Positions 5,541 to 53,415 of a stretch of 64,000 nucleotides of DNA are shown here, piece after piece. The stretch's first letter is position 1. Every line of letters starts with the position of its first letter. The stretch is from positions 5,213,315 through 5,277,314 of the forward strand of contig CM041199.1 in assembly GCA_023078555.1 (NCBI GenBank), read 5' to 3'. Source of the stretch: Ulva prolifera (lineage: Eukaryota; Chlorophyta; Ulvophyceae; Ulvales; Ulvaceae). The position numbers were made by a program, and so were the translations under genes. Below the pieces are notes generated by a model that saw only the letters and a program-made list of their open reading frames with translations, searched no databases and was not told where the DNA came from.

Positions 5541-5559
5541 GAGAAGGGCTGCTGCATTG

Positions 5560-7080: not shown

Positions 7081-7109
7081 GCTGTTAGCATGGCTGGTCA
7101 GTTTGGGTA

Positions 7110-29828: not shown

Positions 29829-32210
29829 GCTCCAGAAAGTAACTGCTTTCTACTTTCTTAGCTGTGATTCATATCCCCTTTGCATACGCTGAAGTTGGCT
29901 GACCGCTACGGCATGTTACCGCACGCGTTGTCGAGGTAGCCAGTGACCTCTGCCGTTGCTACAGCTCGTTCGCTGATCCGGCTCATCCAGTCAAGATTAT
30001 ATACAAACTCATGTTGCCGTGGGTCGGGAATCTGCGTTGTGAGCCAACCGGCCGACCAAGTGCACTTGCTGGTATCATCGCTGTGGACCACTAGCCTCGG
30101 AGAGCTGTGCGTGAAGCTCTGCGCCAGTCAGGCCTGCGATGCATCGCATCGATAATTACGGATTTGTGCCGTAAAATGTATCATGAAAGGACTGTCCAGC
30201 TAGCTGGCATGACTGCATGTGACTGCCTCAAGCAGGCGCTTGTGCAAGCTCATGGCCCACAGCGCCCGCCCGAATATTGCACCGCGTTGCCACGACATAG
30301 ACGCAAACGCAAGGCCGAACGATGCCCCATTCTCAGGCGGCGTCCTTAGGCAGGATCAGAAACGCATATGCGTGTCGCGAAACAGCGCCATCTACCTCGA
30401 GATATAAATACGCCATAGCCACTATTGCACTGCGGTCGGCAGTATACGCAGTACGTACTGCGGTGAGTTGTGCACGTGTGCTGTCTTTGTGAAGATTCAC
30501 CGCCGTTGTCCCAGCGCACGACAGATGATTTTACTAATCTGTCAAGTCCAACATCAAGCTTTCATAGTGACATACGTGACTGCCGATGGAATCTGTGTAC
30601 CGCGTCGACGTCCTGCCACGATGTGTACACCGAACCCAGGTTCAAGGCATCGCATTGTCCTCGATTGGCCAATGTCCTGCATCGACCGGCAGAAACACCC
30701 ATGTGTACTTTGTTTACAAAAGAGTGAACTGAAGAAAACACCCATGTGTATGTCGTGACTGAACCTGAGGTACCACAAAGCATGCTCACGCGTCTTCTGG
30801 GTCGGGCATATATGCAGTTCTTGTAAACGTCGTTCATCTCTGTGTGCTGAATCACTGGAGCCGGGGGTGACTGAGGGATACGTATTCAGCAGCCGCTTCG
30901 GCCTGCATGCATTCAGCTGCATCCCGGCCACGTCCACTACCGTCCACGGCAGCCGGTCGCTGGTTTGGCTTGATGTATTTCTTTGCTTTGCCATATGGTG
31001 GCCCGAAATGTGTAACTTAGTGTACCGTCCACGGCAGGACGCGGTCAGTCTGTCACACCCAGGACTAAGCCACAGTTAAATGCATGTAGTGCACCACCTG
31101 AGGCTCAGAACAGACCCCTGTTACTACATTCCACTGCAGGACGTGTGTCAGAACCCCTGTGCAGTGCTCCCCTGTCCACGCCCAGTGATGACTGTACAGG
31201 CCATGCTAGCATAACCTAATTGTCAAACCAGTCGCACTAGCACCACCTGCATCTCTCACAGCTTGCCGACAGCAGGGAGGCTGCCCATACCTGCCCATGC
31301 TAATCCTGTCTACTCCATTACACTGAAACCGCTCAAGCAGAAGTTGCCTGTCCCCCGCGCCAGGCAAGCAGCTGACGACCTCAGGCTGCACACCCACTGA
31401 ATCTACAACTCCACACATCTACCTACAGCTCTGGAAACAACCCAGGCAGGCTTCCCCATAACAGGGTCGGCACTGAATCCGGTGAGGCGATACTTCTGAC
31501 GCCGTTCTCTCTGCCCCCTCCCGGCGGGGATTAAAGCGGCCCGAGCTTGCTGCAAGCGTTCCCTGCTGATTGCCTTTTGACCTTGGACGTTGACAATAAA
31601 TCTGCACACAGGTGGGGTGCCCCCCGGCCGCAGAAAGGCACGAGGGGACGGAAAGTGTCGAAAGGGACTCACTCTGGGCTGCTGGCGCACCGCCACAGCT
31701 GTGACAACGCCCACGCAATCGTGCCGAGCTTCAGGTGTTCGCGCCGGCCCCGCCTCCACTGTGGCCCCAGCAGCCACGGCCAATCTCCCATGCCCAGCTG
31801 CTGTACAGCATCACACTCCAGCAGGAGCACATGCCTGCTGCACAGGCCAGACCTGCTGCGGACAGCAGCCCGCAGCACGCTCCTCCATGCATGCAGATCG
31901 ATGCATGCCTGCGCTGCGCATGCTGTGATCCGCAGCACAGCGCGTCCGCAGCACGCAGCACGAGGCGGGTGGACTCGCAAACGCCTGACACATGCGTGCC
32001 ACTGCTACCACGTTCTCCATCCCCCGTGAGCCACCGCGGCCGCCACGCAGCTTCGCAGCGCACAGAGCGTGCCCGACGCGGCATGCACACGCCACAGCTT
32101 CACAGGCGACGCGTTCAGCGGCCCACAGAACAAATTCCACGGCGAAGTGCGGTGCGCAGCGCCGCAGCCTGCATCTGGCGTTGCTTGCCGCGTTTTCGTT
32201 GTGTCCTCGC
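29829..32210. other. 2.4 kb without a recognised gene
   Basis: 5' flank of the nuclease gene and 3' flank of the minus-strand gene ending at 32211. Open frames on both strands show no motif and no consistent splice partners. It holds one ultra-short retroelement-like insertion (30693-30750) and, from about 31860, GC-rich sequence with recurrent GCAGCACGCAGCAC-type words like those seen inside introns. Confidence 0.45.
30693..30750 (-). mobile_element. 28-bp retroelement tail with 15-bp target duplication
   Basis: Perfect direct repeats AAACACCCATGTGTA at 30693-30707 and 30736-30750 flank a 28-bp insert. On the minus strand the insert contains TTCACTCTTTTGTAAA near its end. The insert matches the shared end of the copies at 48069, 48901, 49587 and 49839. 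Confidence 0.75.
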
Positions 32211-32581
32211 CTAGGCGGCAACCCCAGGGTCCCCGGGGCGCCTATGGATCAGGGTGTACTCATACGTGGCCCCCTCAATGACCCCCGTAGCCACAATGTG
32301 CATCTCGCCGTCGGGCGTGAGGCGGAACAGCTCCCGCATGTAGCCGGCGTGCGGCGCGCCCCAGCGGTAGTGCAGAACCATGCCCTCCGGCGTCGGCTCG
32401 GCGCGGCCGAGGCTGCCGCCGCCGCGCTGGTCGCGCCGCCGATTCTTCGTCTCACTCCCGTCCAGCGGGTACCTGCATGTGGCAGCCACTCAGCGAGTGT
32501 GAGGGAGCACATACATTGGGGTGCGTGTGCGGGTGATGTGCGCGGGGATAACCATGGCGTAGGGGGTGGCTACAAGGTTCA

Positions 32582-32616
<35 letters not shown>

Positions 32617-33594
32617 CGCTCGGAGATCTTGAGCAGGGGGATGACCGACACCGCGGCGACGTCAAAGTTGCCTGCGGAGAAGCTGACGTGCGAGCCGCGC
32701 AGGATCTTGATGGCGTGCCGTAGCAGGCCGAAAAGGTGCATCGCGTCGCATACCGGCGCCATGCTGTCCGAGCGCTTGCGGTCCTGCACGCAACAGCGCA
32801 GCACGTCACACAGCGCAGCACGTGATAGCGCAGCCTCGGCGGCGCCTGCGGAATGGACATGACCACCCCTGATCCGATACAGTGAATTGCGCGCTTTGGG
32901 TCGGAGCTTACGCAGCGCAGGTCAACAGAGCCCGTTGACAGGAGGCTGCAGGGAAGCACGGCGTCGGTGGCACGACTCCCAGCTGCGTGGCGGTGCAGGC
33001 GAGCAGCTGCGGAGGCACAGAAAGAAAGGGGACCCATCAATGGCACCTGGTACAGGGGCGCGCATGTGGCGAATCTGCAGGCTTCCACCACGTAGATCGC
33101 GAGGATATCTGTCGTTGGCGCCGGAGCTGGAGCTCCCGGGAGCCTCGTGGCCAGCCCACCGCTGCCTCGGCCCACACCACCCACACAACGCCTGTGCGAT
33201 GCAGCCTCGCGGGCAGGAGGCGTGCAGACAACTGTATGCACCGGTGCACTGTCACGAGATTTTTTTATTTTTTTTGGAAGGCAGAGAGCAGGAGTGCGAG
33301 AGGAAGGATCATGAGTGCAGTCTCAGCCGCATGCATGCGCAGTGAAGGCCCGCCGGGCTGCCGCACCTTGACCCACATGCCGCTGATCTGCTCCGGCGTG
33401 TACGGCAGCACGTCCGTGATGGCCGCGGGGACACCCCCGGCCGCCGCCGCGACCACCGCGGCCTCCTCCGCCCCGGCACCGGGCGCCGGGGGCGCGTCAA
33501 GCGGCGGCGCGTCCGCCGCGGCCACGTCCACGGCGCCGACGCGCGCGTGTGTGGGCGCCCGCGTCTTCAGGCGGCGGACCGTCAGCAGGATCGC
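32211..33594 (-). CDS. Conserved-looking unknown protein, 5' partial
   Basis: Exons 33367-33594, 32617-32783 and 32211-32472, joined in phases 0 and 2; stop TAG at 32211-32213. After an Ala/Pro-rich N-terminal part, the joined protein reads as one domain of about 150 residues: YTPEQISGMWVK-DRKRSDSM across the first join, ILRGSHVSFSAG, then ISER-YPLDGSETKNRRRDQR across the second, GMVLHYRWGAPHAGYM and MHIVATGVIEG. The smooth reading across both joins and the density of Trp, Arg and Asp residues suggest a real conserved domain. I recall plant and algal proteins of this general look but cannot name the family. Intron 2 begins GTG followed directly by 32 C (the G run at 32582-32613 on the plus strand). 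A SINE-like repeat lies in the intron upstream of 33594. Confidence 0.65.
32582..32613. repeat. 32-bp G homopolymer beside a 5' splice site
   Basis: 32 consecutive G on the plus strand, i.e. poly-C on the transcribed strand of the minus gene, starting at intron position 4 right after the GTG donor. Confidence 0.9.
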
Positions 33595-33607
33595 CTGCAC
33601 AGCGCAC

Positions 33608-33680
33608 AATCTGAATTTACTGAGCCGTATCCTATTGGACATTGACAACTCCGACTTAACGGGACCACATATGCCGAAGG
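33608..33680 (-). repeat. SINE-like repeat copy 4
   Basis: Nearly identical to the copy at 13735-13825 over CATATGTGGTCCCGTTAA...CAGTAAATTCAGATT, but without the repeated TTTAC tail. It lies in the intron just upstream of exon 33367-33594. Its 5' side extends into GGTGGTTTACCCCTTCGG, which is shared with the copy at 38650-38745. Confidence 0.75.
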
Positions 33681-35304
33681 GGTAAACCACCTGGGAATCC
33701 CCCTCAGACGACCGTACACAACTCACAGGGCCTCCACCTGTGCTAAGCGCGGTGGTCACGTACGGCCGCTTCGATTCCCCAAAGCGCACACATGTTGTGC
33801 ACAAGAAGGTGCCACATGCACCTGTAGCCACAACCCCTGCTGCCTTGCAAGGACAGAGGCAGAGAGATAGCACTTGAGGAGCACATGCAGCTAGTATTCG
33901 GGCCTTGTGAGGTCAGGTTGTGCGTACTTGAGTTGGGAAGGAGCGGCCGCGGGGTTGCGGTCGGTGCCGGCGTATGCTGTGGTGACATGCATTGCGTGTG
34001 GTGCGTTCTGCATGTCTGACTGTTTCCATGCACACCCACAACCACCACACCCACACCCACATGCAGCGCTAGCCCGTGAAAGACAGCCTGTGAAAGACGG
34101 CCATGTGCGAGGGTGGAAAATGTATGTCAAAGCGTCTGCATGTGTGTGAGTTCATTCGGCACACTGCGGATTGGGGGAAGACGCCGCATGAGGCTCTTGT
34201 GCGAGGTGAGTAAACTGCAATTCACAAGCCCTGTTTCTGGCGCTGAGCTGTGAGTGGTGATGCATGTGAGGCCGATTCTGCTTCAGCATCCCAGTGGCCA
34301 CGGAGCCTGTCACTATCCACTCTGAACACTGGTGTCTTCTTTATTGAGATACAGATGGCACCATACAGAACATGCTGGAATTTGACAGGGGAGGCAAGCA
34401 AGCAAGCACCAGGTGGATGGCACTCGCCGAAGTGAGTTGAAGGCGTTGATGCATAGCTGTTGCGACTCTCTGGAGGTACTACAGCGTGGGTTGGCATGTG
34501 TGGAGTGGCGATTCATGGCTGAGCATAAATGTGCAGCCCGCGGACTGCCAAGGAAGTGCAGCCAGCACATGCCTTGCAGGAGAGGTGCATTGGGACGTGT
34601 AGACGTAGACACGTCGACATTGTTGGATCATCGCGCAGTCCTAGTTGAGACATGGCAGCCCCGAATGGTGGGAACGCCACGTGCTGTTCAAAGGATAGCC
34701 GCTTCAGCAGCGGTGTGGCTGATTCAGAGGCAACATGCACAGCTGCGTGGGTGACATTGTTGCTCTCCGAGAGTGGGTGATGGGTGAGTTCGGCCCATCT
34801 TCGATTTGTGCTGATCATTCTTTCTCAGTGTGATAGCACCTGACATGATGTTGGGCAAATAAGACGAAGATAGCAGAGGTGGTGAGCCTAGCCTTGCGGC
34901 GAGCGATCCCTGCTGCAAGCGCATTCTCACGACATCCATTTGGACTTGAGTTGCCCTCAACCACTCGGGCTTGCAATCATTTGCATTAGCTGTGCAAGTG
35001 ATACATGGTGCGCTGGTCGGCTGAGAAACAGTGAGAAGGGATGCAGGATCGAATGGCTAACTTCGGGAATCGATCAGGAAGCATGTGCGTTGCAATGGAT
35101 GCTACTGTTGTTCTTTGCATGTGGCATGGCTACACGTTTCCTGAGGGAGCCTGACCTGCCCAACAACCCTTTGGCAGTGCCTTAGCATAGTATGTGTGCA
35201 CAACTCTGACGTTGTAGGGGAGCTTGTCAGGTGCGTGCAGTTCGTGGGTAGAGCAGCCTTCTTCGGCAGGATGTGAATGAGAACTGTGTTGCGAAGGCAG
35301 TGAA
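33681..35304. other. 1.6 kb without a recognised gene
   Basis: Should contain the missing 5' exon(s) of the minus-strand gene at 32211-33594. No frame stands out, and short open frames on both strands lack motifs. Confidence 0.4.
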
Positions 35305-35852
35305 TCACAACACACTGCCGTCGACGCTGTGCAAACAGATGGACACTGAAACATTCACAGTAGCTAAGGTGGGAATGTTACGAACCTCCAGCGTGCCAAC
35401 GTGCAGCAATCCCATCGCGACGATGAGCCCAGCGATGGGTTGTCCTCTGCTGAACGTTATGCCGTTGAGGGCGGACCCCGCGATCGTCAGCAATGCCAGA
35501 AGCATTTGCGCAACACGAACGTAGAAGTACGGTTGAAATACCACGGGGATGGTGGCTGTCCACGGCTTTGTCGCAGCACCCGGGAGATGCGCTTGGATAA
35601 CCTCCACATCTGCAGGGAAGCAATTCTTGGCCAATAAGCAACGCGATCACGCAGCCATGGCGAAGCAGGGGCAGTACCTCTGTCACCTTCAGGCTCATTC
35701 TGCACATCAACATCTGCGCGTCCGGGCACAACTGGCTGCACAGCTGGCTCATCGGGTTCTACATTACGACGTGCCCGTCCTCGCCGAAGTACGCGCAACG
35801 CAAGCGCCCCAATCAGCAAGCCACTTAGAGCCGCTTGCGTGTTACGTTTCAT
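35305..35852 (-). CDS. Small two-exon membrane protein
   Basis: Exons 35678-35852 and 35305-35609, split by a 68-nt intron (GTACTG...CCTGCAG) in phase 1; about 160 residues. The ATG at 35850-35852 gives MKRNTQAALSGLLIGALALR, a basic start plus hydrophobic helix. A charged loop follows (EPDEPAV...DVDVQNEPEGDR), then VAQMLLALLTIAGSALNG and IAGLIVAMGLLHVG, so two or three membrane spans. The last 25 residues, after GTLE, may instead be intronic because a GTTCGT donor-like site is there. Family not recognised. Confidence 0.55.
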
Positions 35853-36450
35853 ATCGAAATAATGCCCTCCTTCAGATCTTAACTGACAAGTGCTCCTTCC
35901 TGCTGCAGCGCAGACAGCGAATTGCTGACACGGCTGTTACAAGGCTTCAAAACGGGACTATCGAGCCTACTTGAATGGCGTAAAGCTAATGATCAAGATG
36001 GATACAGCTGTGTAGCCGATGTTTCAGTGGATGAAGGGCTGGGAACAGGCTTTGCGCGCGGTGCTGTGCTGTAGGCATGCCGGCAACAGTCCCTCCGCAG
36101 CGTGTCACTCTGCTGATGCCGTATCTCGACCTCAGTGAATACCCAGAAGCGCTACTGGCACGCGTGCACAAGGCTCACAGCACCCATCTGCGGAATTGTC
36201 ACATGTGTTCCGCGTTTGTCCGCGGCCAGGATTGGAACGGCTCTCGAGAGGCATCGATGCATTCTGCCAGGTCAGCCGGGGCAGCGTCGGAAGGTTGGGC
36301 ATCCACAGCATGCCGTGAACTCTATCAAAGCTGATCGATGCAAAGGACATTTTCGATGGCATGCCCACATCTGGTGCAGCTGCTAGTGCAAGAGCGCATA
36401 CCGACACACAGCTGAAGCTCAAGGGTGCCGATATGCACGGGGCACTTTGA
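35853..36450. other. Intergenic, no gene seen
   Basis: 5' flank of the small membrane protein gene. Open frames of up to about 116 codons on both strands lack recognisable features. Confidence 0.4.
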
Positions 36451-36831
36451 CTAAGTGGTGCAAATACATTTGATGTGGCCATGTTGACAAATTGTAATTG
36501 AATTGAGGCTGAGTGGGACGGGTGAGGGACCGAACGCCAGTGAATTTGACATATGGGTCGACATGGCGTCAGGTCCTTGGCCTAGCAGGCGCCAGGCAGG
36601 AGACTCTGTACGAGAATCTTTCACCAAAAACTTTTTTGTTTGCGAAGCGATGGTGTTGATCCCGAATAGCGCTATTCCAGCTCCATTTGCGTTGGCAATG
36701 CTCCAACCCAGGCAAAGCAGGCAACCATCACAGCCCGAACCCCACTCAGCGGCATGCTTAGTACAGAAAGACAGGAGTTGCCACATGCTCCTCGCTGTCC
36801 CATCTGTTGTTCGGATAGCATGCAGCAACAA
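36451..36831 (-). CDS. Cys-containing hypothetical ORF, paralogue of 39322-39873
   Basis: A minus-strand open frame of 126 codons. It carries GSGCDGCLLCLGWSIA, which matches GSGCDGCLRCFGWRIA in the minus-strand ORF 39322-39873, and the two remain alignable for about 60 further residues to PSPVPLSLN versus VQPLSALRTK. Upstream nucleotide similarity (GACATTGTAGCAGGTTG against GACATTGTAGCACGTTG) extends to about 36940, so the true gene probably starts upstream and is frameshifted or spliced. The CxxCxxC-like motif might bind a metal. Unknown family; could be a degenerate duplicate. Confidence 0.35.
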   Translation of the reverse strand: MLLHAIRTTDGTARSMWQLLSFCTKHAAEWGSGCDGCLLCLGWSIANANGAGIALFGINTIASQTKKFLVKDSRTESPAWRLLGQGPDAMSTHMSNSLAFGPSPVPLSLNSITICQHGHIKCICTT

Positions 36832-37073
36832 TTGACAAGCACATGCTCACAACACACTCTGCCATGAACACACCCAGCGATGGATACACCAGGACTACAA
36901 CCTGCTACAATGTCACCGCAGTTGTGACTCTGAACAACACACACCAATTCAGCATTGTAGGGTAACAAACTTTGACTGCTGACAGCTGGAAGCTACAGGC
37001 ACAGGCCCCGCAGCTCGGTGAACGCTGACAGCCGCTGTGGCTAAAGCGGCGCCGAGGACGGGCCGAGCGTCTA

Positions 37074-38330
37074 CCCCTCAAACTCCAGGCGTGCCAGGTG
37101 CGTCAGCTGAAGTAGCTGCCGGCTGAGGACGGGATCAAAGGCATGTAGCACATCATCGACCCCGAGCACCTGCGACATCGAGCACCTGCGGATGCCCCCA
37201 CGGCACGAACATGCTGAGCTGCTACAGCTGCAGGCCCGGAAAATCCCCCAGCGCAGCAGTCGCGACCTCCACAGCATGCATGGCGTCGAGTGGCTGCATC
37301 GTCAACGATGAGACGACGTCGTTTGCCGCACGCGTGGCCATGCATGCCACAGGCGCGCACGTGAGGCCCCTCCACGACGCCTCAACTGTGGCGGACTCAT
37401 AGTCGCCCCGTCCTTATTCTTTGTCTGTGCAGTGCGTCAGGTGAAGTCGTGGGGTCGCAGCACGCAGCGCTCCCAGCACATTGGCCGGGCACCAGTTTCC
37501 ACCCTGGGAGAAGCACCGCTGCCGCGCTGCGAGACTGCCCCGCTTCTCTGTCACAGCACGCAGCACGCAGCGCGACGGGCTCCGCAGCATACGCATGTGC
37601 ATGGCTGCCAACGAATGCCGTACATTCCCAATAGTGAGTATCCCGGCTTCGAGGGCAGTCAGCGCGGCGCGCTCGCGCACGGCACCGGCGCCGCCTCCCC
37701 CGCCATGCACCATCAGCGGGGCTTTACTGAGGCCCAGGGGCAGTGCCTGCAGCTGCAGCATGCATGCCAGAGTGGCTACGAGTGCTGAAAGGCGCCGCTG
37801 TGCGTCGGTGCCGATCGCACGGAGCTGTGCACCATGGCCGCCATCGCCGCCAAGCCTCTCAGGCCATGCATGTCCCCGTTCTCGAGCCAAAGCTTAGCTC
37901 GATCCTCCGGGTGTCAGGCAGCGGCGGCTGAGATGTGGCGCAGATGGCCTGCAACAAGGTATGAAGCAAAGTCAAGTAAACCTTGTGGTAGTCTACGGGC
38001 TTCGGTATCCTGTGCGCCGCCGGTGGCAAGCAGCAGGCTCGGTGCCAGCAGGGTGCAGGTGCTCACGCGTCGTGCATGAGTCGCATGCTGGCGAGAGCAA
38101 TCACAGCACGCACAGCGTGGCAGAACGGCTGCGGAACAAGCCGAATCGGAGCAAGCCAAGCTGCTGCCCGCACGGAGCGAACCGGAACGTCCAGCATCTA
38201 TCTCGGGGTGGACCGCGACAACAACGGCCGCATGCATGCGGCGCCAGAGCGTGGCGAGCTGGGTGTCTAGAGGGGCAGCGCAGGCGCGCAGCACGCACAG
38301 CAGGATATGCTCTGGGACAGTCCCCAGGGC
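37074..38330 (-). pseudogene. F-box-like/LRR gene remnant
   Basis: From 38330 downward, right after a CCACTGCAG acceptor, the frame reads ALGTVPEHILLCVLRACA, then ATLWRRMHAAVVVAVHPEID. This is the same F-box-like opening, at the same exon border, as ALPEHLLLATLARV in the LRR genes at 45668 and 51127. Further down, leucine-rich pieces persist in different frames (37800-37890, and 37080-37180 ending LTHLARLEFEG). They are separated by stops (for example after FPGLQL near 37230). No upstream adaptor-like exon is convincing. A decayed third family member is the best reading. Confidence 0.5.
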
Positions 38331-39321
38331 CTGCAGTGGCACAAGCGGGTGTTGAGCAGCGCTGGATTGCGGCATGTCGTCTGGTGCCACGCCGCGGACG
38401 CGCTTGATTGCTCGTCGAAGCGTTGCCATGCAAAGGTCTCTTCCCGATGTCACGTTTCTTCACACGCATGTGAAGGGAGTCGCTGTGCGCAGCAGGGTGG
38501 GTCGTAGCCTACTTGGTCTTTGAGCCCCAGCACATGCACATGCATATGTCGAACAGCACCGCCTTCCGGATGTCAGCACCGAACGAGGGGACAGGCTGAC
38601 GTAGGAGTGCAGCAGAGCCCTCGGCAGCTGCCGCAGCATCACGTGGTTTACCTCTTCGGCACATAAGGTCCCGTTGATTCGGAGTTGGCAGTGTCCTCTT
38701 CAGGATACGACTCAGTGAATTCAGATTTACTGTACTTTGCTTTACGAGCAGCTACCGGTGAATGGTGAGGCCTGTGTCAACGTTATGTCAGTCAACGTTA
38801 TGAGCCACAATCTTGGCATCAGAAGAGGACGTCCCTGGAGCACTGCGCTTGACTTGCCAGATGTGTCCCTGGGGCGGTCAGCGGCGGTGTGGACATGTGG
38901 AGGGGCCTGAGCTTGGACAGGGCGGCTGTGCGTGCAGCAGCTGCAGTGTGGAGGCTCCGCATGGCCGACGTCCCTCAGCGACGCATGCGAGCTCAGCCCT
39001 GCGCCCCAGAGACCCGCGTTGCAAGTTCCCGGGCGCGGCTGCGGGCATGTCGCGAATGGTGCTCTCTCTACCTCAGGTGGCACGTGGTGCTCGCGGTTGC
39101 ACACCGGCTCAGCCAGTGCTCAGCTGCAGCTAGGTCGACAGAGGAAGGCAGGACAGCTGATCAAGGTCTGCATGAAGTATGATAGAGAGATAATGATTAA
39201 GTTTGTGGAGTCCACGCGTGCAGTCGGGTGCAGCTGCTGCAATTGAGTACATTGCAACAGAACACCCACACGCTGAGACAGGCCGCGCCGTGAAAGAGTC
39301 GATACACAGTTTCAAATTTGC
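38331..39321. other. Intergenic with SINE-like repeat
   Basis: Upstream of the F-box-like remnant. It contains a SINE-like repeat copy at 38650-38745 in plus orientation; otherwise no gene is seen. Confidence 0.45.
38650..38745 (+). repeat. SINE-like repeat copy 5, plus orientation
   Basis: Reads GTGGTTTACCTCTTCGGCAC, ATAAGGTCCCGTTGATTCGG, AGTTGGCAGTGTCC, GGATACGACTCAGTGAATTC, AGATTTACTGTACTTTGCTT, TAC. The 5' extension GGTTTACC.CTTCGGCA is shared only with the copy at 33608-33680. Confidence 0.7.
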
Positions 39322-39873
39322 TTAGGCCGCACGATTAGATTGCATCGTCTTGGTTCTCAAGGCAGAAAGAGGCTGAACGCCAGTGAATTCGGCATACAAG
39401 TCGTCATGGCGACATTCTGCTGGGCTCGCAGGCCATACAGCAGAACTTGGAATCGAATCATGCACATAGCAATCATGTAATTCCTTAGCTTTGAATCTGT
39501 TCATCGCTGTTTCAGCTCTATCAGCTCTGTCTCTGGCAATGCGCCAGCCAAAGCAACGCAAGCAACCATCACAACCAGAACCAGAATCAGCGGCATCCTG
39601 TTTCAAGGTGCGCACATAAACTCGAGATGCCTTTTTCCCCGTATCCATGCATGTCGGTGAGACGCTCGCAGGCTCACCGACAGCTGACAAGCGCTTGCGA
39701 TGCGCAAGACAAGCACTCAACACACCATTGCTGCAACGTGCTACAATGTCAACACTCACGCAGCGATCATTCTTGCAAATCCAAACATGTTTCATATCAA
39801 GCAATGAAGCATACAGAGATAAGATACACCGTCTATCCTCTTGTGGCATTGCTCCTGCCGGGCAGTGCCACAT
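39322..39873 (-). CDS. Cys-containing hypothetical ORF, paralogue of 36451-36831
   Basis: A 183-codon minus-strand open frame starting MWHCPAGAMPQ. It includes HVWICKNDRCVSVDIVARCS, then DSGSGCDGCLRCFGWRIA, matching the ORF at 36451-36831 both in nucleotides and in protein, with the reading frame preserved. The Cys pattern (C-x5-C, then CDGCLRC) is the most noticeable feature. The 5' end overlaps the upstream part of the plus-strand TPR gene model on the opposite strand. No family recognised. Confidence 0.4.
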   Translation of the reverse strand: MWHCPAGAMPQEDRRCILSLYASLLDMKHVWICKNDRCVSVDIVARCSNGVLSACLAHRKRLSAVGEPASVSPTCMDTGKKASRVYVRTLKQDAADSGSGCDGCLRCFGWRIARDRADRAETAMNRFKAKELHDCYVHDSIPSSAVWPASPAECRHDDLYAEFTGVQPLSALRTKTMQSNRAA

Positions 39874-42800
39874 TCAAAGCAGTCACCCCAGACAGTCAGA
39901 CATCGTGTGCTCCAGGCTGCAGAACAATCACAGCAACGTGGAGAGCGTCGACGTGGCAAGGAGGCCATTCCTCACTATCAGCAGGCGGTGGAGCGCTTCC
40001 AGCGGGCCCTTGAGCTCGGGCTGGATGGGGAGAAGCGCGGCCACGCCCAGGTCCTGTGTGCCGAGTCTCTGCAAGGCTGGGCCCAGAGCGTGCTCGCAGC
40101 AGAGGCCTGCCTGCCTGACGAAGAGCAGTCGCTGGCAGTAGAGGCGGCTGCGAAAGGCGAGGCGTCCCAGTTGTACCAGCAAGCCATCCAGGTGATCACG
40201 ACTCGCTGCTTACAGTCACCGCCTCAACGCAGACCACCGTGTTTCCAAGCCATCACTCTGCACGAGCCACAGTGAAAGCCTGACATTGCAGCATGTAGCA
40301 GCCTCCGTGCGGACAGCTGCTTGTGGTGGAACTCCGTGCGCCTGCAGCCCTGCACACGTGTCCGTCGTGCATGCCGCACAGCCGCAGCGTGGAGCCGCTG
40401 CCTGTACCATGAGCACCGCAGGCCTACGACATGGCTGTCGTTGTCCTTTGCAGCTGCCACACATGTTCAACGAGCCTGTTGCACGTCATGCACATAGCTG
40501 CTGCCTGCTGCAGCGTCTCTATCAGGAAGGCACACTCTTTCTGGAGCCTTGCGAAGTGCCGCACGCAGCGTGCGTCGCCAAACGCCCACAGCAAAGGTGG
40601 CACTCACGGTAACCTTTCCCGAATGACCGCGTCCGAGACGCTCTCCACACCTGAACGAAGATCATTGTGGGCGGAGAAGCGCGTGTGGCAGGATGACACT
40701 GCGTGAGCTAGGAAGGTACCATCGCACCGCCGACACTCGCCAAGCGCCTCCCTACACAGCACAGGCAGCACTGGCCAAGCTCCCCTGTGCTTGCGACGGC
40801 GTCGTCCATGCGTTACTCACCTGTTCCGTGGGTCACCCCTCGAGTGCATCCAATGCTAAATCCCGACAGCCCGTGCCCGTGTTCTCCCATGCGGCAGCCG
40901 GCGTGAGCAGGTCAATTCCGGGCCATGCCACACACACATACCAACCCCCCAATTGCATCCTGTTTTGCAATGCTGCAACGGCGTGGCTTGAGGTGCAGGC
41001 GGCGCGGGCGCTTGCGGGAGCGAACGCGGGGGACTGGAGCCGCGCGGACGCCGCCACGAACTGCGGCAACTGCTTCGCGGAGGCCGCGGAGCTGCTGCCC
41101 GCAGCACAGCAGGCGTCGGCGCTGGCAAAGGCGGCTGCATGCTACCGTGCCGCGCTCGCCCTCGAAGAGGACGCCCTCGTGCGCACCTCCCGCCCTGTTC
41201 CAGCACCCCCCCCTGTTCCAGCGGCCCCTCCTGGGGGCGCGCTGACCCCCCCGTCATCCCCTGAGAGCACTGTTCAACCCCCTGTTTGGGCACCCGGTGT
41301 GTTTTGCGGTTCAGACAGGCATCACCTTCTAAGCCTGTGTCTCTGGTGGCTCTGTGGTGTGAGTGGTGTCGATTGCGATGCTGTGCTGTCCATTTGGATG
41401 CTGCGCCAGGCAGGGTCCCAAGCTCGTGTAGCTGGTCCTCTGCTTTGGTGTGATGTCATGCAGCGGCCTGCGCCGCTTACGATTGACCTTCAAAACAAGG
41501 AGGCAGATGTGGCCTTCAAAACAAGGAGGTCATGCGTTGGGGCGTGAGGTGTTGTGCAGGCGCTGCCGCCAGCTGGAGCTGCCCCTCGGCGGATGGCGGA
41601 GCTGGCGGCACAGCCGGGTTCGTGGTCTGTGTGCGGGCCCATGCATGCGAGCACGCCTGTGAGTGTCCCAATCAGTCTAGTTGAGAGCTGGGGGCACAGT
41701 CCGTCGGCTGCGAGAATGCGACATTCCCGGCTGAACTCACCTCATCAGCTTGAACCCAACTGCACATGGATTCCGCCACGTTGCATCAGGAATATAGAAT
41801 ACTCTGTCGAGTCAATCTTGTCGCCGCCTTGCGGGGAGAGGGCACTGTATGCTGCGTGCTGTGGTCTGCCGACGCGGCGGCCGACACGCTCTGCCGTCAA
41901 GATGACCACAGAGCCATGCGCCGTGCACACCCCATGCGTTGCCGGAGGCTGCGCGCGGATCCACGGCGTACACGCCATGCACGCTCGGGCTCCTCATGCA
42001 TGCATCCTCCCCCCTTCAAAGCATGCATGCGCGCATCCCGTGCAGACGTGGAGCAACCTCGCGGACGCGCTGATCCAGCTCTCGCAGGCGCACGCCGCGC
42101 AGGGCGCGCACAGCGACGCGCGCGCGGCCGTCGTCGCGGCGCGCGCAGCGTACGTGTCGTCCACGGCCCTCTCCTCCTCGGACGCGGGGGACGACCTGCC
42201 GGGGCTGCTGTGCAACTGGGGTGCGGGGCTGACGGCCGCGGGCGGCATGCTGCGCGAGGCAGGGGACGCGGCGGGCGCGCTGGAGGCGCTGCGGGATGCC
42301 GTGCGGCGGCTGGAGTGCAGCGCGGACCTCCAGCGCTCAGACATCCAGGTCTGCCCGTTGATTGTTTTTGTTCCTTCCGTTGATTGTTTTTTTGTCCTTC
42401 CGTTGATTGTTTTTGTTTCCTCCCAAAACTCATAGGTTTCATTTTGGAATAGTTGTATGATGTGCCCTCTCAGCGGTGCATGTCCTCGAATTGCGGTTGT
42501 CGCCGTGTAGCGCATCGGCATGTCGGGTATGATTTGCAGCATCGTCCTTTCGGCGGCACACATGCATTGGGGCGCCCGTAGCCGCTGCACGCATGTGTCG
42601 CCCGCGTGCCCCAGAGTACACCCGCGCCTCCTAAGCGATACTGCTAGCCTGGAGACTGAACACCGAACATGCATGGCTACAGGTGCACATGGCACTGGCG
42701 GAGGCGCGGTGCGGCCTCGCCGAGGCCCTGTTTGCGTCTGCGGGGGCCGCCGCCGCGGAGGCGTCTGTGGCGGAGGCGGTCACGGCGTCGGAGGCGGCTA

Positions 42801-43562
42801 TGGCGGGCGCCCTCGCGGCGTGTGACGCAGCGCAGGGTATCACGCGGGAGCACCCTGCAGCCACGCTCGTCCTTGCAGAGACCCTCACCGCTGCCTCCAA
42901 GATGAGTGGTGCGCCCTGCTGAGTCCCTTCTGTGCCACGATCGCCCGCAGATGTGTGGTAGCTCATGCAGGCCGCGTGTGGCGGTGGAGGACAGAGGCTA
43001 GGTCATGAACATGCAGTAGTCTGAGTGCGCTGGTCGCTCAGAATCAGCTCAATCGAAGTCGGTGGTGGTTGTACAACCCACATTCGCCAGACCCGGGGTG
43101 TGTGCCCCGGCAGCACATGCGATGTGTTCACGCCCTGAACGTGTTCGTGGACCATTCTCTGCCCTCCACCGCCACAACCAGTCATTTTCGCATGATCTTC
43201 TGAGGCGAGCCGTCGGCCGCTCGATGTGCTGTGCATGCTGTGCATGCTGTGCAGTGGCACGCCAGTCCGCCGAGCGGGCGACGGAGTTCGCGATCCGCGC
43301 GTGGGCCGCGTACGTCGTCGTGCTGCGGAAGCCGAAGGAGCTCGGCAGCTGCTCGGAGCGCAGCACGACGCGGTACAACGCGGCGTGTGCCGCGGCGCGC
43401 TGCGGCGCGGCCGCCGACGCGCTGCGGCTGCTGGAGCAGGTCGCCGCGAAGGACCCGGCCGCGCTGCGCGACGCAGCAGCCGATGAAGACCTGGAGCCCC
43501 TCCGCAGCACGGCGGAGTTCCAGGCTCTGCTGCAGAAGGCAATGCATGGCGCGAGTGCGTGA
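39841..43562 (+). CDS. Tetratricopeptide-repeat (TPR) protein
   Basis: Five exons joined in phase: about 39841 (or 39916 if an upstream exon exists)-40191, 40999-41178, 42046-42348, 42683-42908 and 43255-43562 (TGA); about 455 residues. The protein is nearly all helix with TPR-type spacing: KEAIPHYQQAVERFQRALEL, NCGNCFAEAAEL with AAACYRAALALEEDAL, TWSNLADALIQLSQAHAAQG with DARAAVVAARAAYV, LCNWGAGLTAAGGMLREAGD, then RYNAACAAARCGAAADALRL near the end. The open frame continues smoothly over each join (for example YQQAIQ-AARALAGANAGD and ALEEDAL-TWSNLAD), which strongly supports the model. TPR arrays bind partner proteins; the partner is unknown. Intron 3 starts with three copies of a T-rich 22-24 bp repeat. 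Confidence 0.75.
42361..42430. repeat. T-rich tandem repeat in TPR gene intron
   Basis: Three imperfect copies of a unit of about 22-24 bp, GTTGATTGTTTTTGTTCCTT, begin about 10 bp after the 5' splice site of intron 3. They differ in the number of T. Confidence 0.8.
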
Positions 43563-44847
43563 GGCGTGCATTGCTGCAACAGCTTTGGTGCCACGGCGGC
43601 GCATACGTAGGTTGCACTTCAGCGCGCACTGTCAGACCTGGAAATGTCTAGCATTTACATGGCGAAATTTGTATAGCCACGCGCCCGGCAGTGCCGTGTG
43701 CCTGGGGCGCCTGTGCGAGCTGCCAGCACATAGCTTCGTACCCTGGCATCAGGGCTTAGGTGCCAAATCTTAAAGTCGTGTTTGATGGACGACCTCAACA
43801 CTTGGGCGCAGAGGGCCAGGAGCTGATGTGCTAGGACTGCATCCGAGAGTGGTGACTCAGGTGCACATGACAGCGGCTCTGGAGGGCAGGCATCGCGGGC
43901 AGCGCTTCAGTGTGCAACATGACGTCTATGCGTGCATGAACATGTGTACCGGGCACCAGCTGTTCTTCCTGGAGGGTCGGGGAAATGTTGCAAGGGGCAC
44001 CCATCCGCATATAGCAGCTACACTGCGATATTCATGCTGTGCAGCCGGACAGTCATTGCAATGCTTTGCGTCGCAGAGCAGTCGTAACTGCAGGTCTTAC
44101 TTTCTCGCTCTTGATGCGCATGATCGTGTGCATTCATGTCTCCGACACATTCCAAGCTGTCGTGGGTGTTCTGCAGTAGATGGCTGTGGCATGTACCGTT
44201 GTGCCCACAGTGGCTTTTGTGTCCATTACCGTATACGAGAATCAAAGTACCGATTGGCTCACTTAGACGGTATAACACCTGTCACAAGACGTGTGAAGCT
44301 TTCTTGTAGTTGAGAACTAGTGTCACTAGTGTCACTAGTGTCATGATCTGAAGTGCGGTGCAGGGAGGCTAACCAGCCTTAAACGTCATGGCTTGCGAGG
44401 GCTGTGGAGCTGTCGATGTCAACAATTTGTTTGACTGCTGTATCGAAGCGTCTCCTGTGTCTGGCGCCGAGTTTACGTGCAGCGTGTCTCTCAAGGCCCG
44501 GTCCACGTTGGCATCGTCGTGTGGTTGCAGGGGTACAAGCATGAACAGTTGTTGATCTTGGTTGTGCAAAGGACCATCGATGATTCAGGTTGAATATCTG
44601 CACCACACGTAGACAAAAAGCTACAGAGAAAGGTTTGTCCGCATGTGCGTGCGAAAAAGTCGTAGCTCGGATATTGCGTTGCAATTGAGCACCTTGTCCG
44701 TAGGGAAAGGCAGCAGTGCAGTGGCCCCGCATGATTCAACGCTATGCTCTGTTGACAACGCAAGAACATCATAGGGCACGTGCGGCGACCTGTAAGACCG
44801 GTCCAGTCTGTATCTCGCGTCGCGCAAATTGAGACTCGCTGGTCGAG
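43563..44847. other. Intergenic; duplicated 5' flank of LRR pair 2
   Basis: Nothing recognisable from 43600 to 44360. A short ACTAGTGTC repeat (about three copies) lies at 44317-44343. From about 44366 on, the sequence resembles 49620-50259 upstream of the second copy (for example the GAAGCGTCTCCTGT / GAAGCGCCTCCTGT segment), so this is part of the tandem duplication and may include promoter sequence. A short minus-strand frame (44379-44569) is partly conserved between the two. Confidence 0.5.
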
Positions 44848-47800
44848 ATGTTTCACGCCGAGGCAGTTTGCAATTCTGCCTCAACAGTTCTTCAGATTGC
44901 CGTTGACGGTATCTGGTTGGTGCACCGCAACGGAGAAAGAAGCCATTGCGGGCCAAGCTGTATCTCCCGGAGCCAGCTACTGCAGGGCATCCACAATAAT
45001 TCCGAAGCTGGCGAAGAAGCACATGTGCCGCTGAGTGAGGACAGTTTGTTACAATGGATATCCCAGGTATCACATTTTGATGACGGCTTTGTCGCCGTTC
45101 AGTTCTTTCCGCAAAGCAAGTGGTGCTTCACCTGTTGCAATCTCGAACGCCGGATCAGTTTTAGTGGCATCATGCAGGTCGCCAATCATACCTCAGCTGG
45201 AGACACGGGCAACGAGACTTCGGGGAATACGTTGCAAAATGCTGCATCGATGTGCACACTCCTCATGGTCAGCCCCTGACTACAAACACACACAGCCATG
45301 TTGTGTTCCTGAGGCCAGGGACATACCACTGCGCTGCACAGGCAGCTTCACGAGCTGTTTGGCTGTCACCGGTGCTTGATCGACTCGCTGGACTGCAGGC
45401 TGCTGATGTGTTGATCGATGAGGCAGGCACCGCAACCGCTGCAGAGAGGCTGGCAGAGCTGTTGCAGGCACAGGACGCTGACCAAGACAGCACCAGGAAG
45501 GTGCAACACCGCACTGAGCACGTCTGTACCTTCAGTCTGCACTCCCATCCTCCTCTCATGCATTATGCATGCAGTCGTATCAGAGCATCATGCCACGTCA
45601 TCCTGGCATTACGGGCTGCATTGCACTGGTACACGCAACCCTTTTCTTGACACCCCCGCATGTACAGGCGATACAAGCTCTCCCAGAACACCTCCTGCTC
45701 GCCACCCTCGCGCGTGTGCCATTGCCGCACTGCCTCCGCCACCTCCCCCTCCCCTTCCACCAGCCCGCCCTCCGTGCCCACCATCCCTCGACTGACTCCC
45801 ATCGCTCCCTCCGCCTCTCCCACATCCCGCCCTCCCTCATGCGCCCCGTGATGCGTGCTGCGGCCTCGCTGCATGGCCTCCGCGCCGTGTGCCTCGCCGG
45901 CATGACGCTCTCCGGCACCGCGACCCCTCTGGCCGCAATATTGCAGGGCCTCACCGGCGTCACCGCCCTTGACCTCAGCAACACGAGCCCCTCACCGGCG
46001 GCATGGGCGGCACTCACGGCCGCGCTGCCCACGCTACGGCAGCTGGAGAGCCTCGACATCAGCTGCAACCGCCTGTGGCTGCTATCGTTGCGCGGCCTCG
46101 TGCGTGGCATCGCGCAGTGCACCACGCTGCGCGCGCTGCGCATGCTGCGCACGGTCAGCATCCATCGCCCGGCGTTCGGCGGTGGCGCGGTGCTCGCGCG
46201 GTGCCTGCCGGCTCTGCCGCGCCTGACTGAGCTCCGCTTCGGCTCCATCTTTGGCATGCAGTCGGGGGTGGACGCCCACGGCATCAGCAACGGCCTGCTG
46301 AGCATGCTGCATGCCCTGCACGCTGCAAGGGACCTGCGCAACCTAGCACTAGAGTATCTGAACATCCAGGTGCGGGCCATGCATGCTGCGTGTGACCTGC
46401 AATGAGTGCAGCTGCGGACTGTAGACGAGCATAAAGCATGCATCTCATCAACAACACGGCCCATACTGCTGGCTGCGTTGCTCCCTCAGGCCGGGGTGGG
46501 CAGTGTGCTGTGGGTTACAAGGACAAAGCAAGTGAGGCAGGTAGCACCGCGAGCAAAAACCAGAGGAACCGTGGGCAGTGTGCGTGTGTAGCGCATGCAA
46601 GAGCAGCAGACCATTGTGGCCACATGTGGCAGACTCGGCGCTGCGCCCCATGCAGGTGCTACACAGGAGAGTCCTGTAGTGTCAGGTTTGCGGCCTCTCA
46701 CTTCTATGTGATGTTCATGCAGGTGCAGTTTCCGCGCTCTGATGCAATCGCTCGAGCTCTGGGGCGGCTGACGCAACTGTCTCAACTGAGCATGTGCCTG
46801 CCGATGATCCGGGGTCAACATGAGGAGCCCAGTGCTGCCCCCTCAGAGCAGAGCGTGAGGCAGGATTATGGGATTTGGGGCGCCGAGCTCGGGGGCCTGA
46901 CGAGCCTGGCCGCACTTCACTTGAACATCTGGGAGTGGGGGTGGGTCACGGCCCTCAACCTGCTGCACGAGACGCTGCACACCGTCAGCGCGCTGACAGC
47001 GCTCGAGCAGCTGACGCTCGATGTTTGCGAGATCGAAGATCTGCCGGCACTGGCGAAAGACGCGCTGGCCAGCCTGCCCCGCCTGACGAAGCTGCGCGTC
47101 CTCTGCGGGATGGACGAAGCCTGTGTGGAAATGGTGGACGCGGCCTCGGCAGCGGCGCTTGCGCGGGTGGCGGTGTGCGAGCTGCCGCAGCTGCGGGAGC
47201 TGCACCTGCCCGTCACAGCCGCACCAGGCGGTGGGGAGGAGCTCGTCGCGTCGCTGCTGGGCGCGACGCACCTGCAGCAGCTCACTCTCGATCTGTATGT
47301 GTCCACCGCGCACTTTCTTGATGGCTCAGGCGACTTCCTGGACGATCCGGACCTGCCTGAGCCATCTGACTTCCTGGCTCAGTACACCCCGTTGTTCCCC
47401 CATCTGTGCACGGTCAATGCGTTTTGCTGGAGGGATTGTCGCTGGATGCAACCTCTGGTGGCGCAAGCGAGCCAGCTCACCCGGCTGCATGCCTTGCGCC
47501 TGACCTGTGAAAGACCGTTGGAGTACTATGGGACTGTGAACGCCATCTTGCAAGCTTTGGTGTGCTTGAGCAGCTTACGAGAGCTGTCGCTGTGTGGCTT
47601 TGCGATACCGTATCATGCTGGGGCGGAGGCATTGCAGCGCTTGACACAGCTCACTGCCCTCGACATCACGGGCCAGACCCTGGCGAATGTCGGGGAGGAC
47701 CCAAGGCTGGCCCTGCCGCGCTCGCTGGAGAAGCTGACAGTGCGAAACTACCTCGCAGAGCATGCTCAGCAGGCTGATGCGCATGTGAGCGCGTTAGCTC

Positions 47801-48000
47801 CACTGCACCTGAAGATGATGCTCGTACATCCCAACTCTGAGGATGACGGTGGCCACTCGCTGCGGATGCTGGTGCAGCAGCTGCCGCGACTGGAGTCGAC
47901 AAAGCATGGGTGCTCCGGCGACGGAGAGGGCGTGGCTAGCACAGCTGACCTGGAGGCAGAGCATCAACTATCCATAAGCATGATGGCTGTTGAACTCTAG
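44848..48000 (+). CDS. SKP1/BTB-like + F-box-like + LRR protein, second family copy A
   Basis: Exons 44848-45066, probably 45103-45267, 45399-45500, 45668-46369 and 46723-48000 (TAG), phase 0 throughout; about 820 residues. The ATG at 44848 aligns with that of the tandem copy at 50260. Exon 1 suggests a SKP1/BTB-like start (STVLQIAVDGIWLVHRNG, then AHVPLSEDSLLQWIS). Exon 3 begins AADVLIDEAGTATAAERLAE, the late helix. Exon 4 begins AIQALPEHLLLATLARVPL, F-box-like, then LRRs (VTALDLSNTS, LESLDISCNRL). Exon 5 continues LRRs (LGRLTQLSQLSMCLP, LRELHLPVT, LTALDITGQT). Exon 2 is the weak point: its 36-nt upstream intron is unusually short, and its frame disagrees with the other copy. The LRR body is intact. 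The role is inferred from architecture only. Confidence 0.7.
46512..46555 (+). repeat. Dispersed short repeat (GTTACAAGGACAAAGC)
   Basis: GGTTACAAGGACAAAGCAAG, then TGAGGCAGGTAGCACCGCG, inside intron 4 of the LRR gene. A close copy is at 48252-48292 (GTTACAAGGATAAAGCGAAC...GGCAGGTAGCACCGCG) and an inverted one at about 62190-62236 (rc of CATCCTGCCTTGCTTGCTTT...GTAACACATA). Confidence 0.7.
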
Positions 48001-48056
48001 TAATACACGCCCCGCCGCCTCCATCTTGCATCTGGACCTGTGCAACCATGACCATG

Positions 48057-48118
48057 ATGCCGGCATGCTTTTTACAAAAGAGTGAACGGGAGAAAACAAA
48101 CACTGAATGCCGGCATGC
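48057..48118 (-). mobile_element. 38-bp retroelement tail with 12-bp target duplication
   Basis: Perfect direct repeats ATGCCGGCATGC at 48057-48068 and 48107-48118 flank a 38-bp insert (48069-48106). Its minus strand reads TCAGTGTTTGTTTTCTCCCG, then TTCACTCTTTTGTAAA and a few A. Confidence 0.8.
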
Positions 48119-48897
48119 ATGTTTTGCCGCTTCCATGCCTGCAGAAAAAAGACTGCAGGCACATAGAGTGTACAGAATGCGCGTACATGTCCCTGAGTGT
48201 GGTGCACAAAATTGACAGGTAATTAACCCGTGGTGGGGGGTGCGGCTGTGTGTGTTACAAGGATAAAGCGAACGAGGCAGGTAGCACCGCGGCAAACACA
48301 CGGCTTGGCGTGTGGCGTGCTGGCCTGGGTGCCTGTGCATGCAGGGCCGGGCGTGCTAGCGTTTGGTGGCGGAGCTACCGGCTTCATGATGTAAGCCCGC
48401 CAACTCAATAATTACATGATTATGACTACAATGATTACATGCCTTAGTTTCGTCTGAAAGGGTATGAAGCCAAATGTGCTGGCAGAGCTCACGCTGCTCA
48501 CCTGCGCCACATGATGTAAGCCCGCCAACTCAGGAGCGCCATGCCGCGCGACGTCGACACGCTGGCCTGAACCCAATCGCCAGCATCGGCATGCAGCCAC
48601 CGCTTGTGCATGGCCATGCCCTAGGCCGGCTCATCTGGCGTGGTGCACCATCCTCTCATTCATGGCCGTTTGTATCATGGTTGGTAGCCTGAGGCGATGA
48701 AAACTGTGAAATGGCGTTCAGAGACAGTATACAGGTCCGATATGTCAGGAATGTGTACATATGGCATGGAGAGGCAAAGCGATGTCTCCAAGATCAAGGC
48801 ATTGTCACTTTCCGAGAAGATCGATCTGAGGTAGAGGTAGTTATTGTGCCAATTGCTGGGCTTAAGGTACACATGGCATGGGCATTCAGCATGCGCA

Positions 48898-48943
48898 GTC
48901 TTACAAAAGAGTGAACGGGAGAAAACAAACACTGAAACCGAAT
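48898..48943 (-). mobile_element. Retroelement tail copy, target duplication not found
   Basis: About 43 bp whose minus strand reads ATTCGGTTTCAGTGTTTGTT, then TTCTCCCGTTCACTCTTTTG, TAAG. It matches the longer copy at 49839-49888 to the same 5' extent (ATTCGG). No flanking direct repeat was seen, so the insert may extend further 3' on the plus strand. Confidence 0.65.
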
Positions 48944-49572
48944 CTCATCCGTATCAACAGCAACATACACTCACACACACACGAACACTACAACCGCACT
49001 CACAACTCAGTCCGGCAGGATCGCGTCCTCCAGGCTACACACGTGCTCCCGGATGATAACATCCTGTGCCCTGGGTAGACGTGGCTGCACCTAGACCTCT
49101 TCTCGATGCGCATGCTTGTATGCTTTCATTTACCCGTCCGCTTCCAAGGTGTGTACATGTGTCCTTCGTGAGGTGGCCTTGCCTGATACAGCTGGGACCA
49201 GAACGGCTTGCGCCAAAACTGCACCGGCAAACAGTGCTCACCGGCGGATGAAGACGTTTCAAAGCACTGTTGTAGGCGAATTGCGCACTGCGACAGCCTG
49301 AACACAGAACCAGTGCTCTACAGGGCCCTTTTTTCCTGCAGGGATTCCCGCTGGACTTTTTCAAATTCTAGCTAGCGGTACTGCACCGCTGAGAGACAGC
49401 GTCGAATTCAAGCAGGACGCGCGCTTCAAGCGAGCGCTCGCTTTCTCTAGAGACTGTTGGCTTAAGCTTTGACGGCTCATTTTCAGCGGCGAAAACCGCT
49501 GCTGTTTCAGAAAAATCGTCTGTTTCAGCGGGAAAACCGCCGGGTTGTAGAGCACTGCCAGCAGTGCACACA

Positions 49573-49613
49573 ACTCTGCAGAACTATTTACAAAAGAGTA
49601 CTCTGCAGAACTA
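49573..49613 (-). mobile_element. 13-bp retroelement tail with 14-bp target duplication
   Basis: Perfect direct repeats ACTCTGCAGAACTA at 49573-49586 and 49600-49613 flank only 13 bp, TTTACAAAAGAGT (49587-49599). That is exactly the shared terminal bases of the other copies, the shortest insert of the set. Confidence 0.75.
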
Positions 49614-49823
49614 GTTCTAGTACTCTGTTCATGGACACCCTGGCCTGCCAGCTGGCAGGGCTCTGAAGTTGACCTAGGGCTTTGAAGTTGACATCACTGC
49701 ACGTAGCTACTAGAGGTAGTACTAGAAAATCGAAGCGCCTCCTGTATCCGGTGCCCGCTGAACGTGCAGTGTGGTTCGTCAAGTTTTGAGATATCTCGAG
49801 GTACGATCATTCGGCCATGTTCG

Positions 49824-49903
49824 TTGTGTTCCAGGTCGCAATACAAAAGAGTGAACGGGAAAAAACAAACACTGAAACCGAATGTTTGCTGTGTTTCAGG
49901 TTG
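49824..49903 (-). mobile_element. About 50-bp retroelement tail, imperfect target duplication
   Basis: Imperfect 15-bp direct repeats (TTGTGTTCCAGGTCG at 49824-49838 and CTGTGTTTCAGGTTG at 49889-49903, 12 of 15 matching) flank the insert. The paralogous sequence upstream of the first LRR copy (about 44550-44600) lacks the insert, giving an empty-site comparison. Confidence 0.65.
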
Positions 49904-53200: not shown

Positions 53201-53415
53201 CTGCGGAGGGGGTGGCCCTGCCGCCCTCTTTAGAAAAGCTGGCGCTGGTAGACTTTGAGGCAGACCATGTTGATGCCTACGTCAGTGCACTAGCTCGTCT
53301 CTTCCTGAAGACGCTGGTCGTTTTCACGGACTGTTCGATTGCCCCCTCGCTCAAGACGCTGCTCCAGGAGCTACCGCACTTGCGTGACGTGGCTGTGCGG
53401 AACAAAAACATGTAG
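50260..53415 (+). pseudogene. Second family copy B of the SKP1/BTB-like + F-box-like + LRR gene, with in-frame TAG
   Basis: Tandem duplicate of the gene at 44848-48000. Exons 50260-50478, 50539-50697, 50844-50945, 51127-51834 and 52216-53415 (TAG), all phase 0. Exon 1 is intact (STVLRVSVDEIVLCHRNG), exon 3 begins ATDVLIDEEG, and exon 4 begins AVQALPEHLLLATLARVPL. In exon 4 the codon at 51277-51279 is TAG, where the sister copy reads serine in RSLRLSHIPPS; six extra bases follow. The frame is otherwise continuous on both sides, and LRRs run intact to the end (ITALDLRDTG, LESIDISDNRV, LRELHLPVT). It is either a very young pseudogene, a gene producing a short SKP1/F-box-like piece, or one restarted at ATG 51304. 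Other genes here use TAG as a normal stop, so reassignment is unlikely. Confidence 0.7.

Follow-up and report, generated by a model that had tools for sequence, protein, structure and literature searches.

Very short 3' fragments of a LINE-like retrotransposon in Ulva prolifera: probable products of target-primed reverse transcription that mostly ends early

It is already known that long interspersed nuclear elements (LINEs) leave copies truncated at the 5' end, and that LINEs of the restriction-like endonuclease (RLE) type can be dispersed, as described for HERO in PMC4640811. Here we consider a LINE-like family of the green alga Ulva prolifera that is represented by five scraps in a stretch of 64,000 nucleotides (the window; contig CM041199.1, C4:5213315-5277314) of the genome, which has 88.9 Mb in 44 contigs. 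What is unusual in this family is that most of the sampled insertion events are shorter than 100 nt, and a few inserts are no longer than their own target duplications. The short inserts are very probably the 3' ends of a retrotransposon without long terminal repeats (LTRs), made by target-primed reverse transcription that mostly ended early. In open-access titles and abstracts we found no description of LINE insertions this short, which, coming from one library, is weak evidence of novelty.

Mammalian L1 copies truncated at the 5' end also have a fixed 3' end and a variable 5' end, with target duplications of similar length and bimodal insert lengths. Truncated LINE copies are usually 100 to 1,000 bp long in the account of PMC3747384, whereas here the median is 64-68 nt, supported inserts go down to 12-14 nt and there is no poly(A) tail. 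The RLE-type LINEs (R2, R4, CRE, NeSL and HERO) resemble the element in having one open reading frame (ORF), in which no apurinic-type endonuclease (APE) was found here, and the PDB matches of its reverse transcriptase (RT) part include three R2 proteins (E 5e-4 to 6e-3, PDB only). Moreover, its C-terminus, as read by eye, has a Cys/His knuckle and, after it, an RHD triplet and a D-X13-D pattern, resembling the motif of that family. In PMC4640811 most RLE-type elements are described as target-specific, HERO being less so; by contrast, our element is dispersed with weak target preferences, its copies are extremely short and inspection by eye showed no N-terminal zinc finger. The Dualen/RandI LINEs of Chlamydomonas and relatives likewise live in a green-lineage host and have an RLE-like region. 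Dualen is described as encoding both APE and RLE (PMC4640811), whereas the 1,012-aa frame of our element gives no APE match and only ~125 nt precede the ORF, and on the missing APE we rejected membership of this group. UnaL2 and ZfL2-2 of the L2 clade and the green-algal RTEX elements are alike in that the 3' end is built on TGTAA. According to PMC3747384, UnaL2 ends in TGTAA repeats and green-algal RTEX tails include (CTTGTAA)n; here, by contrast, a single TGTAA is present with no repeat, no Rfam family is found in L031:6500-6800 (the 3' region of the parent copy described below) and no APE match is obtained.

Five insertions with a common end in the window

The first-pass annotation of the window had reported five scraps sharing one terminal sequence. 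They are real and far above chance: with at most 2 mismatches, the 16-mer TTTACAAAAGAGTGAA has 4 matches in the window against a mean of 0.00 in 100 shuffles. Their common end on the minus strand is ACTCTTTTGTAA, with a final T for A in one of them, and it is at ACTCTTTTGTAA that the constant part ends; the third A and up to ~10 bases beyond vary, which corrects the first description. Four of the five have at least 16 matching bases (at most 2 mismatches), and the fifth is a copy of 12-13 bp only, in which the common sequence is just ACTCTTTTGTAA(A). When the window was scanned with ACTCTTTTGTAA itself at up to 2 mismatches, 7 sites were obtained, namely the five scraps and sites at 2606 and 52204, the latter two without a direct repeat; the same scan with five shuffled words yielded 0-3 sites per word.

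The coordinates and lengths given earlier for the three perfect direct repeats are correct (Table 1). The imperfect repeat beside the copy at 49841, put at 15 bp, is in fact longer, and the copy at 48901, put at about 50 bp, is a much longer fragment that extends into the ORF end of the parent element and has no target duplication above background (best score 7). In micro-insertion 4 the insert is shorter than its target duplication.

Table 1. Insertions of the family in the window (positions in the window; constant part and extra bases in bp).
Feature	Positions	Strand	Constant part + extra bases	Position of constant part	Position of extra bases	Target duplication
Micro-insertion 1	30693..30750	-	22+6	30714-30735	30708-30713	perfect, 15 bp, 30693-30707 / 30736-30750
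Micro-insertion 2	48057..48118	-	35+3	48072-48106	48069-48071	perfect, 12 bp, 48057-48068 / 48107-48118
Insertion 3 (3' fragment, 98.5% identity to parent element L031:6645-6779)	48901..49035	-	135+0	48901-49035		
Micro-insertion 4	49573..49613	-	12+1	49588-49599	49587	perfect, 14 bp, 49573-49586 / 49600-49613
Micro-insertion 5	49817..49901	-	41+4	49841-49881	49837-49840	imperfect, 20 bp, 17/20 matches, 49817-49836 / 49882-49901

The parent element and its 3' ends

A longer element with the same 3' end, for which the first-pass annotation had advised a search, is present in the genome. The parent copy in the fetched locus L031 occupies ~2966-6779 (~3.8 kb, with the 5' boundary taken from comparison with a second copy), its 1,012-codon frame carries Pfam RVT_1 (E 5.4e-11), and CTCTTTTGTAA is found in 14 of 15 long-copy 3' ends. 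The family has a single ORF with reverse transcriptase, preceded by ~125 nt and followed by a 3' untranslated region (UTR) of ~106 nt that ends in TTTTGTAA, and young near-identical copies are present. The L031 copy is interrupted near the C-terminus, its two frames having been searched separately. The RT piece has at least 78 matches in the genome, a lower bound since 75 of the 634 candidates were scored; among the matches listed there are 8 uninterrupted frames of 1,199 codons and 2 of 1,201. About 16 of the listed matches, at 41-44% identity, belong to a related second family, with several open frames of ~1,200-1,270 codons.

As regards the class of the element, in the self-comparison of L031 the 3' region did not recur at the 5' end, and there are thus no LTRs. 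Because the search of PDB with the whole frame was topped by a synthetase, a chance match on the low-complexity N-terminus that we rejected and below which three R2 entries ranked, the RT part was searched alone. It gave five matches at E<=10, all within the range of E values given above, of which three are named R2 and two are named reverse transcriptase-like protein, the latter being presumably Bombyx R2. RVT_1 is the sole Pfam match at E<=1 in the 1,012-aa frame, where no APE endonuclease was matched. The C-terminal motifs mentioned above were read in the C1 copy, and we take their pattern to be like that of R2-type endonucleases, with no confirmation from a library: the C-terminal piece gave no significant match in Pfam and PDB. 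A structured 3' UTR was also sought but none was found, the fold z-score being 0.36 and no Rfam match being obtained in the region given above. Judged from these features of the sequence, the parent is a LINE that is possibly R2-group-like. It is noted that the only repeat in the L031 self-comparison is a pair of 1.25-kb inverted duplicates (532-1773 and 6863-8101, 95.6% identical) that flank the full-length copy, and that the 5' ends in L013 and L031 carry repeated units like TGTTTGTTGCTGGTCG, differing in number between copies, for which template jumping or 5' monomers are possible explanations.

In 14 of the 15 fetched 3' ends of long copies, TTTTGTAA is followed by unrelated flank, the next base being A in 9, T in 4 and C in 1; one of the 14 (L126) has its match ~119 nt off the predicted place, with only 7 UTR bases visible, and the exception (L116) leaves the family sequence after CTCT. 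None of these 15 ends has a poly(A) tail, and ordinary copies are thus as first described, with a tail that is not poly(A). An intact copy on C1 (L012, C1:1592120-1592204) has TTTTGTAA, then the 13 nt TGAGCGCAGGTGT, then 54 A, and a copy on C4 (L115, C4:3275329-3275349) has TTTTGTAA followed by the same 13 bases and then other sequence. A 21-base word across the TTTTGTAA/TGAGCGCAGGTGT junction, at up to 2 mismatches, occurs at 2 places in the genome, which are these two copies, against 0 in the control. After the poly(A) the C1 copy has a repeat of its 5' side, AATCAAATGCAACATACA, of 18 bp, which on that side lies 67 nt before the 5' boundary that the C1 copy and L031 have in common. Family sequence is found on either side of the C1 copy, which fits insertion into an older copy in antisense and makes the AATCAAATGCAACATACA repeat weaker evidence than a unique one would be. 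The simplest reading is that a transcript of the C4 copy would have run past TGTAA, been polyadenylated ~13 nt later and inserted on C1, i.e., a 3' transduction, and a polyadenylated 3' transduction would be evidence of an RNA intermediate. In Chlamydomonas TGTAA is described as the main poly(A) signal, with cleavage 14 nt after it on average (PMC3439250), and we infer that TGTAA acts as a poly(A) signal in this element as well.

Numbers, lengths and junctions of the copies

Across the genome the exact 20-mer TTTACAAAAGAGTGAACGGG occurs 350 times against 0 for its reversed control, and the exact 13-mer TTTACAAAAGAGT 522 times against 2. With 18-mers taken at growing distance from the 3' end and up to 2 mismatches allowed, the matches and reversed-pattern controls are 2190/5 at 18 nt, 1045/3 at 40 nt, 534/14 at 118 nt, 144/26 at ~500 nt and 41/5 at ~3,500 nt; this series is only a rough survival curve, because uneven divergence of subfamilies also lowers the counts. 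It might be supposed that the scraps are chance words, or what internal deletions have left of longer insertions. Chance could indeed account for a few of the 13-mers that have no flanking repeats, the reversed control predicting ~2 in the genome; but with controls near zero against hundreds of matches, and with duplications lying flush with the truncated end (see below), we rejected both ideas and give them next to no chance.

For the census we took 81 of the 100 listed 13-mer places (all 70 on C1 and 11 of 30 on C2) and removed 6 segmental duplicates, so that 75 distinct copies remained, the extent of a copy being the length that matches another copy, compared to 400 nt at most. The extents have a median of 68 nt and range from 16 to at least 400 nt, with 61 of the 75 below 100 nt. 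The distribution has a gap: 72 copies are of 172 nt or less, 3 are of 399 nt or more and none lies between. Of the three long ones, one measures 810 bp and has a 10-bp repeat where it ends, another is the L031 copy of ~3.8 kb, and the third runs for at least 501 bp, up to the edge of the fetched stretch. None of the 72 short copies reaches beyond the 3' UTR and the ~65 nt of ORF next to it.

Three other explanations of this spectrum need to be weighed. The first is that the copies belong to a SINE (short interspersed nuclear element) or another non-autonomous family with a LINE tail, as their shortness, number and common 3' end would allow. Among the 75 copies, however, no common 5' end was found and the lengths are continuous, and what lies upstream in the longer of the short copies is UTR and ORF end of the LINE itself. 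A SINE would have a defined 5' end, usually with a small-RNA promoter; with no such end, and with the lack of an Rfam match in L031:6500-6800, we rejected this explanation, which has only a very remote chance of being right. The second is that short 3' RNA fragments, either decay products or a short transcript, served as templates and were copied to their 5' ends. The confinement of 72 of the 75 copies to the UTR and the very end of the ORF would fit; but the truncation points are spread with no obvious pile-up, and the 5' microhomology described below exceeds chance and indicates joining of unfinished cDNA rather than a template end, and we think this explanation quite unlikely. The third, which is the main rival and is doubtful though to be taken seriously, is ordinary LINE truncation with purifying selection, where the usual mix of lengths arises and mainly the tiny inserts survive in a compact unicellular genome. 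The data are indeed assembled, surviving insertions only, efficient selection would be expected in a unicell, and the copies are clustered (22 of the 70 C1 matches lie less than 2 kb from another, against ~1.5 expected), which fits survival in tolerant regions; some copies are nested inside others. Selection on length should nevertheless be graded, and the gap between 172 and 399 nt in the sample is not; moreover, some of the short copies are recent, since 8 of the 28 measured ones have no difference to a reference copy, each with a perfect duplication.

The evidence for target-primed reverse transcription, which the first-pass annotation had proposed, comes from the parent element and from direct repeats flush with the truncation point. 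In the 72 short copies a direct repeat was looked for between the right flank and sequence whose end lies no more than 14 nt from the truncation point, the null being flanks swapped between copies (n=576). At a score of at least 9 a repeat is found in 32/72 against 4/576, and at a score of at least 7 in 41/72 against 33/576; repeats are thus frequent among the sampled copies, but at the stricter score they mark a minority of them. A broader test not tied to the truncation point gave 33/75 against 26/1,500 at a score of at least 11. In the 32 supported copies the duplications are 9-18 bp long (median 13.5), 26 of them being perfect, and the inserts are 12-166 nt long (median 64). The three shortest inserts, counted to TTTTGTAAA, are those in L035 (12 nt, duplication of 16 bp), L057 (14 nt, 13 bp) and L098 (18 nt, 11 bp); the repeat of the L035 insert has one mismatch, and this insert sits in a 29-bp unit repeated 3.2 times.

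The junctions were analysed in the 28 best-supported cases. At the 5' junction the microhomology averages 1.07 bases against 0.49 in re-paired junctions (permutation p 5e-5), with 1-4 bases in 18 of the 28. At the 3' junction, the right duplication is separated from TTTTGTAAA by 1-10 extra bases in 19 of the 28, and these bases, compared by eye with the flanks of the fetched long copies, show no visible match. The duplication ends with T at 17 of the 28 sites and starts with A at 16, the latter being partly forced by the search word. The target preferences are therefore weak, and the insertions are dispersed rather than target-specific.

Proposed pathway and further observations

Based on the above, the short inserts would arise as follows. 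A staggered cut would expose a primer at the target, and the reverse transcriptase would begin to copy the RNA from TGTAA and not from within a poly(A) tail; this starting point is suggested because ordinary copies lack the flank and tail expected in transcripts. Synthesis would mostly end early (the median is ~64 nt where the support is best), after which the short cDNA would be joined to the target, with microhomology of 1-4 bases in the junctions counted above. Complexes that pass ~170 nt would tend to continue for hundreds to thousands of bases, so that synthesis would have two phases. As the cause of the early stop we prefer host end joining, with a putative Ku-type capture of the nascent cDNA, a proposal whose chances we hold to be evenly balanced. 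For zebrafish ZfL2-2, PMC2666801 describes 5' microhomology in about half of the genomic copies and longer insertions in cells deficient in Ku70 or Artemis.

Several observations weigh against this pathway. The length spectrum is that of surviving insertions only and could reflect selection; the 5' microhomology is weak and is absent in 10 of the 28 junctions; and no duplication is found in 40/72 copies at a score of at least 9, or in 31/72 at a score of at least 7, for which we offer as an explanation that such copies are older, are nested insertions or were joined in another way. Moreover, the endonuclease was assigned from motifs read by eye, with no support from Pfam or PDB, and the transduction is a single case with its target repeat within family sequence.

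A bolder proposal, which we consider unlikely, is that the micro-insertion is the default product of the element, most events being aborted within ~170 nt by a two-phase enzyme or a host block while a minority run on. With TTTTGTAA as the fixed end, every event would then bring in a poly(A) signal of the green-algal type together with a direct repeat, and the family would continuously seed minisatellites and new 3' ends of transcripts at a scale that annotation usually does not reach. The micro-insertions suggest a possible route for the spread of poly(A) signals and tandem-repeat seeds; both the dispersal of poly(A) signals and the seeding of minisatellites are speculative. The tandem array around the L035 insert (L035:1437-1530; C1 near 632523) consists of 3.2 copies of the 29-bp unit, i.e., a target repeat of ~14 bp plus ACTCTTTTGTA, and the junction differs between units; it reflects either several insertions into the same site or a micro-insertion that gave rise to a minisatellite. 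A scan of 127 fetched loci and the window for such seeding found no array but this one, which appears in three loci that overlap.

If the proposed pathway is right, the earliest phase of target-primed reverse transcription would have left its natural products in this genome in numbers from hundreds to about two thousand. In many of them the junctions can be read, and they would be a rich data set for the unsettled question of why LINEs truncate. They also warn that standard annotation may overlook the activity of a LINE where the insert is shorter than its target duplication.

Some further features of the sequence are noted. Between the micro-insertions of the window, the 23-bp word CATGATGTAAGCCCGCCAACTCA occurs twice in identical form (48385-48407 and 48510-48532, 125 bp apart). 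Leucine-rich-repeat-like ORFs that are alike lie across the window (3114-5267, 9512-11476, 46438-48000 and 51304-53415); of the three ORFs tested, i.e., those other than 9512-11476, two matched LRR families in Pfam, with every match below the curated cut-offs. The window also encodes an L1-family ribosomal protein, for which the N-terminus suggests plastid targeting. Matches to the small subunit of RuBisCO lie on the large contigs C1 and C9 in two pieces each, as expected of nuclear genes with introns.

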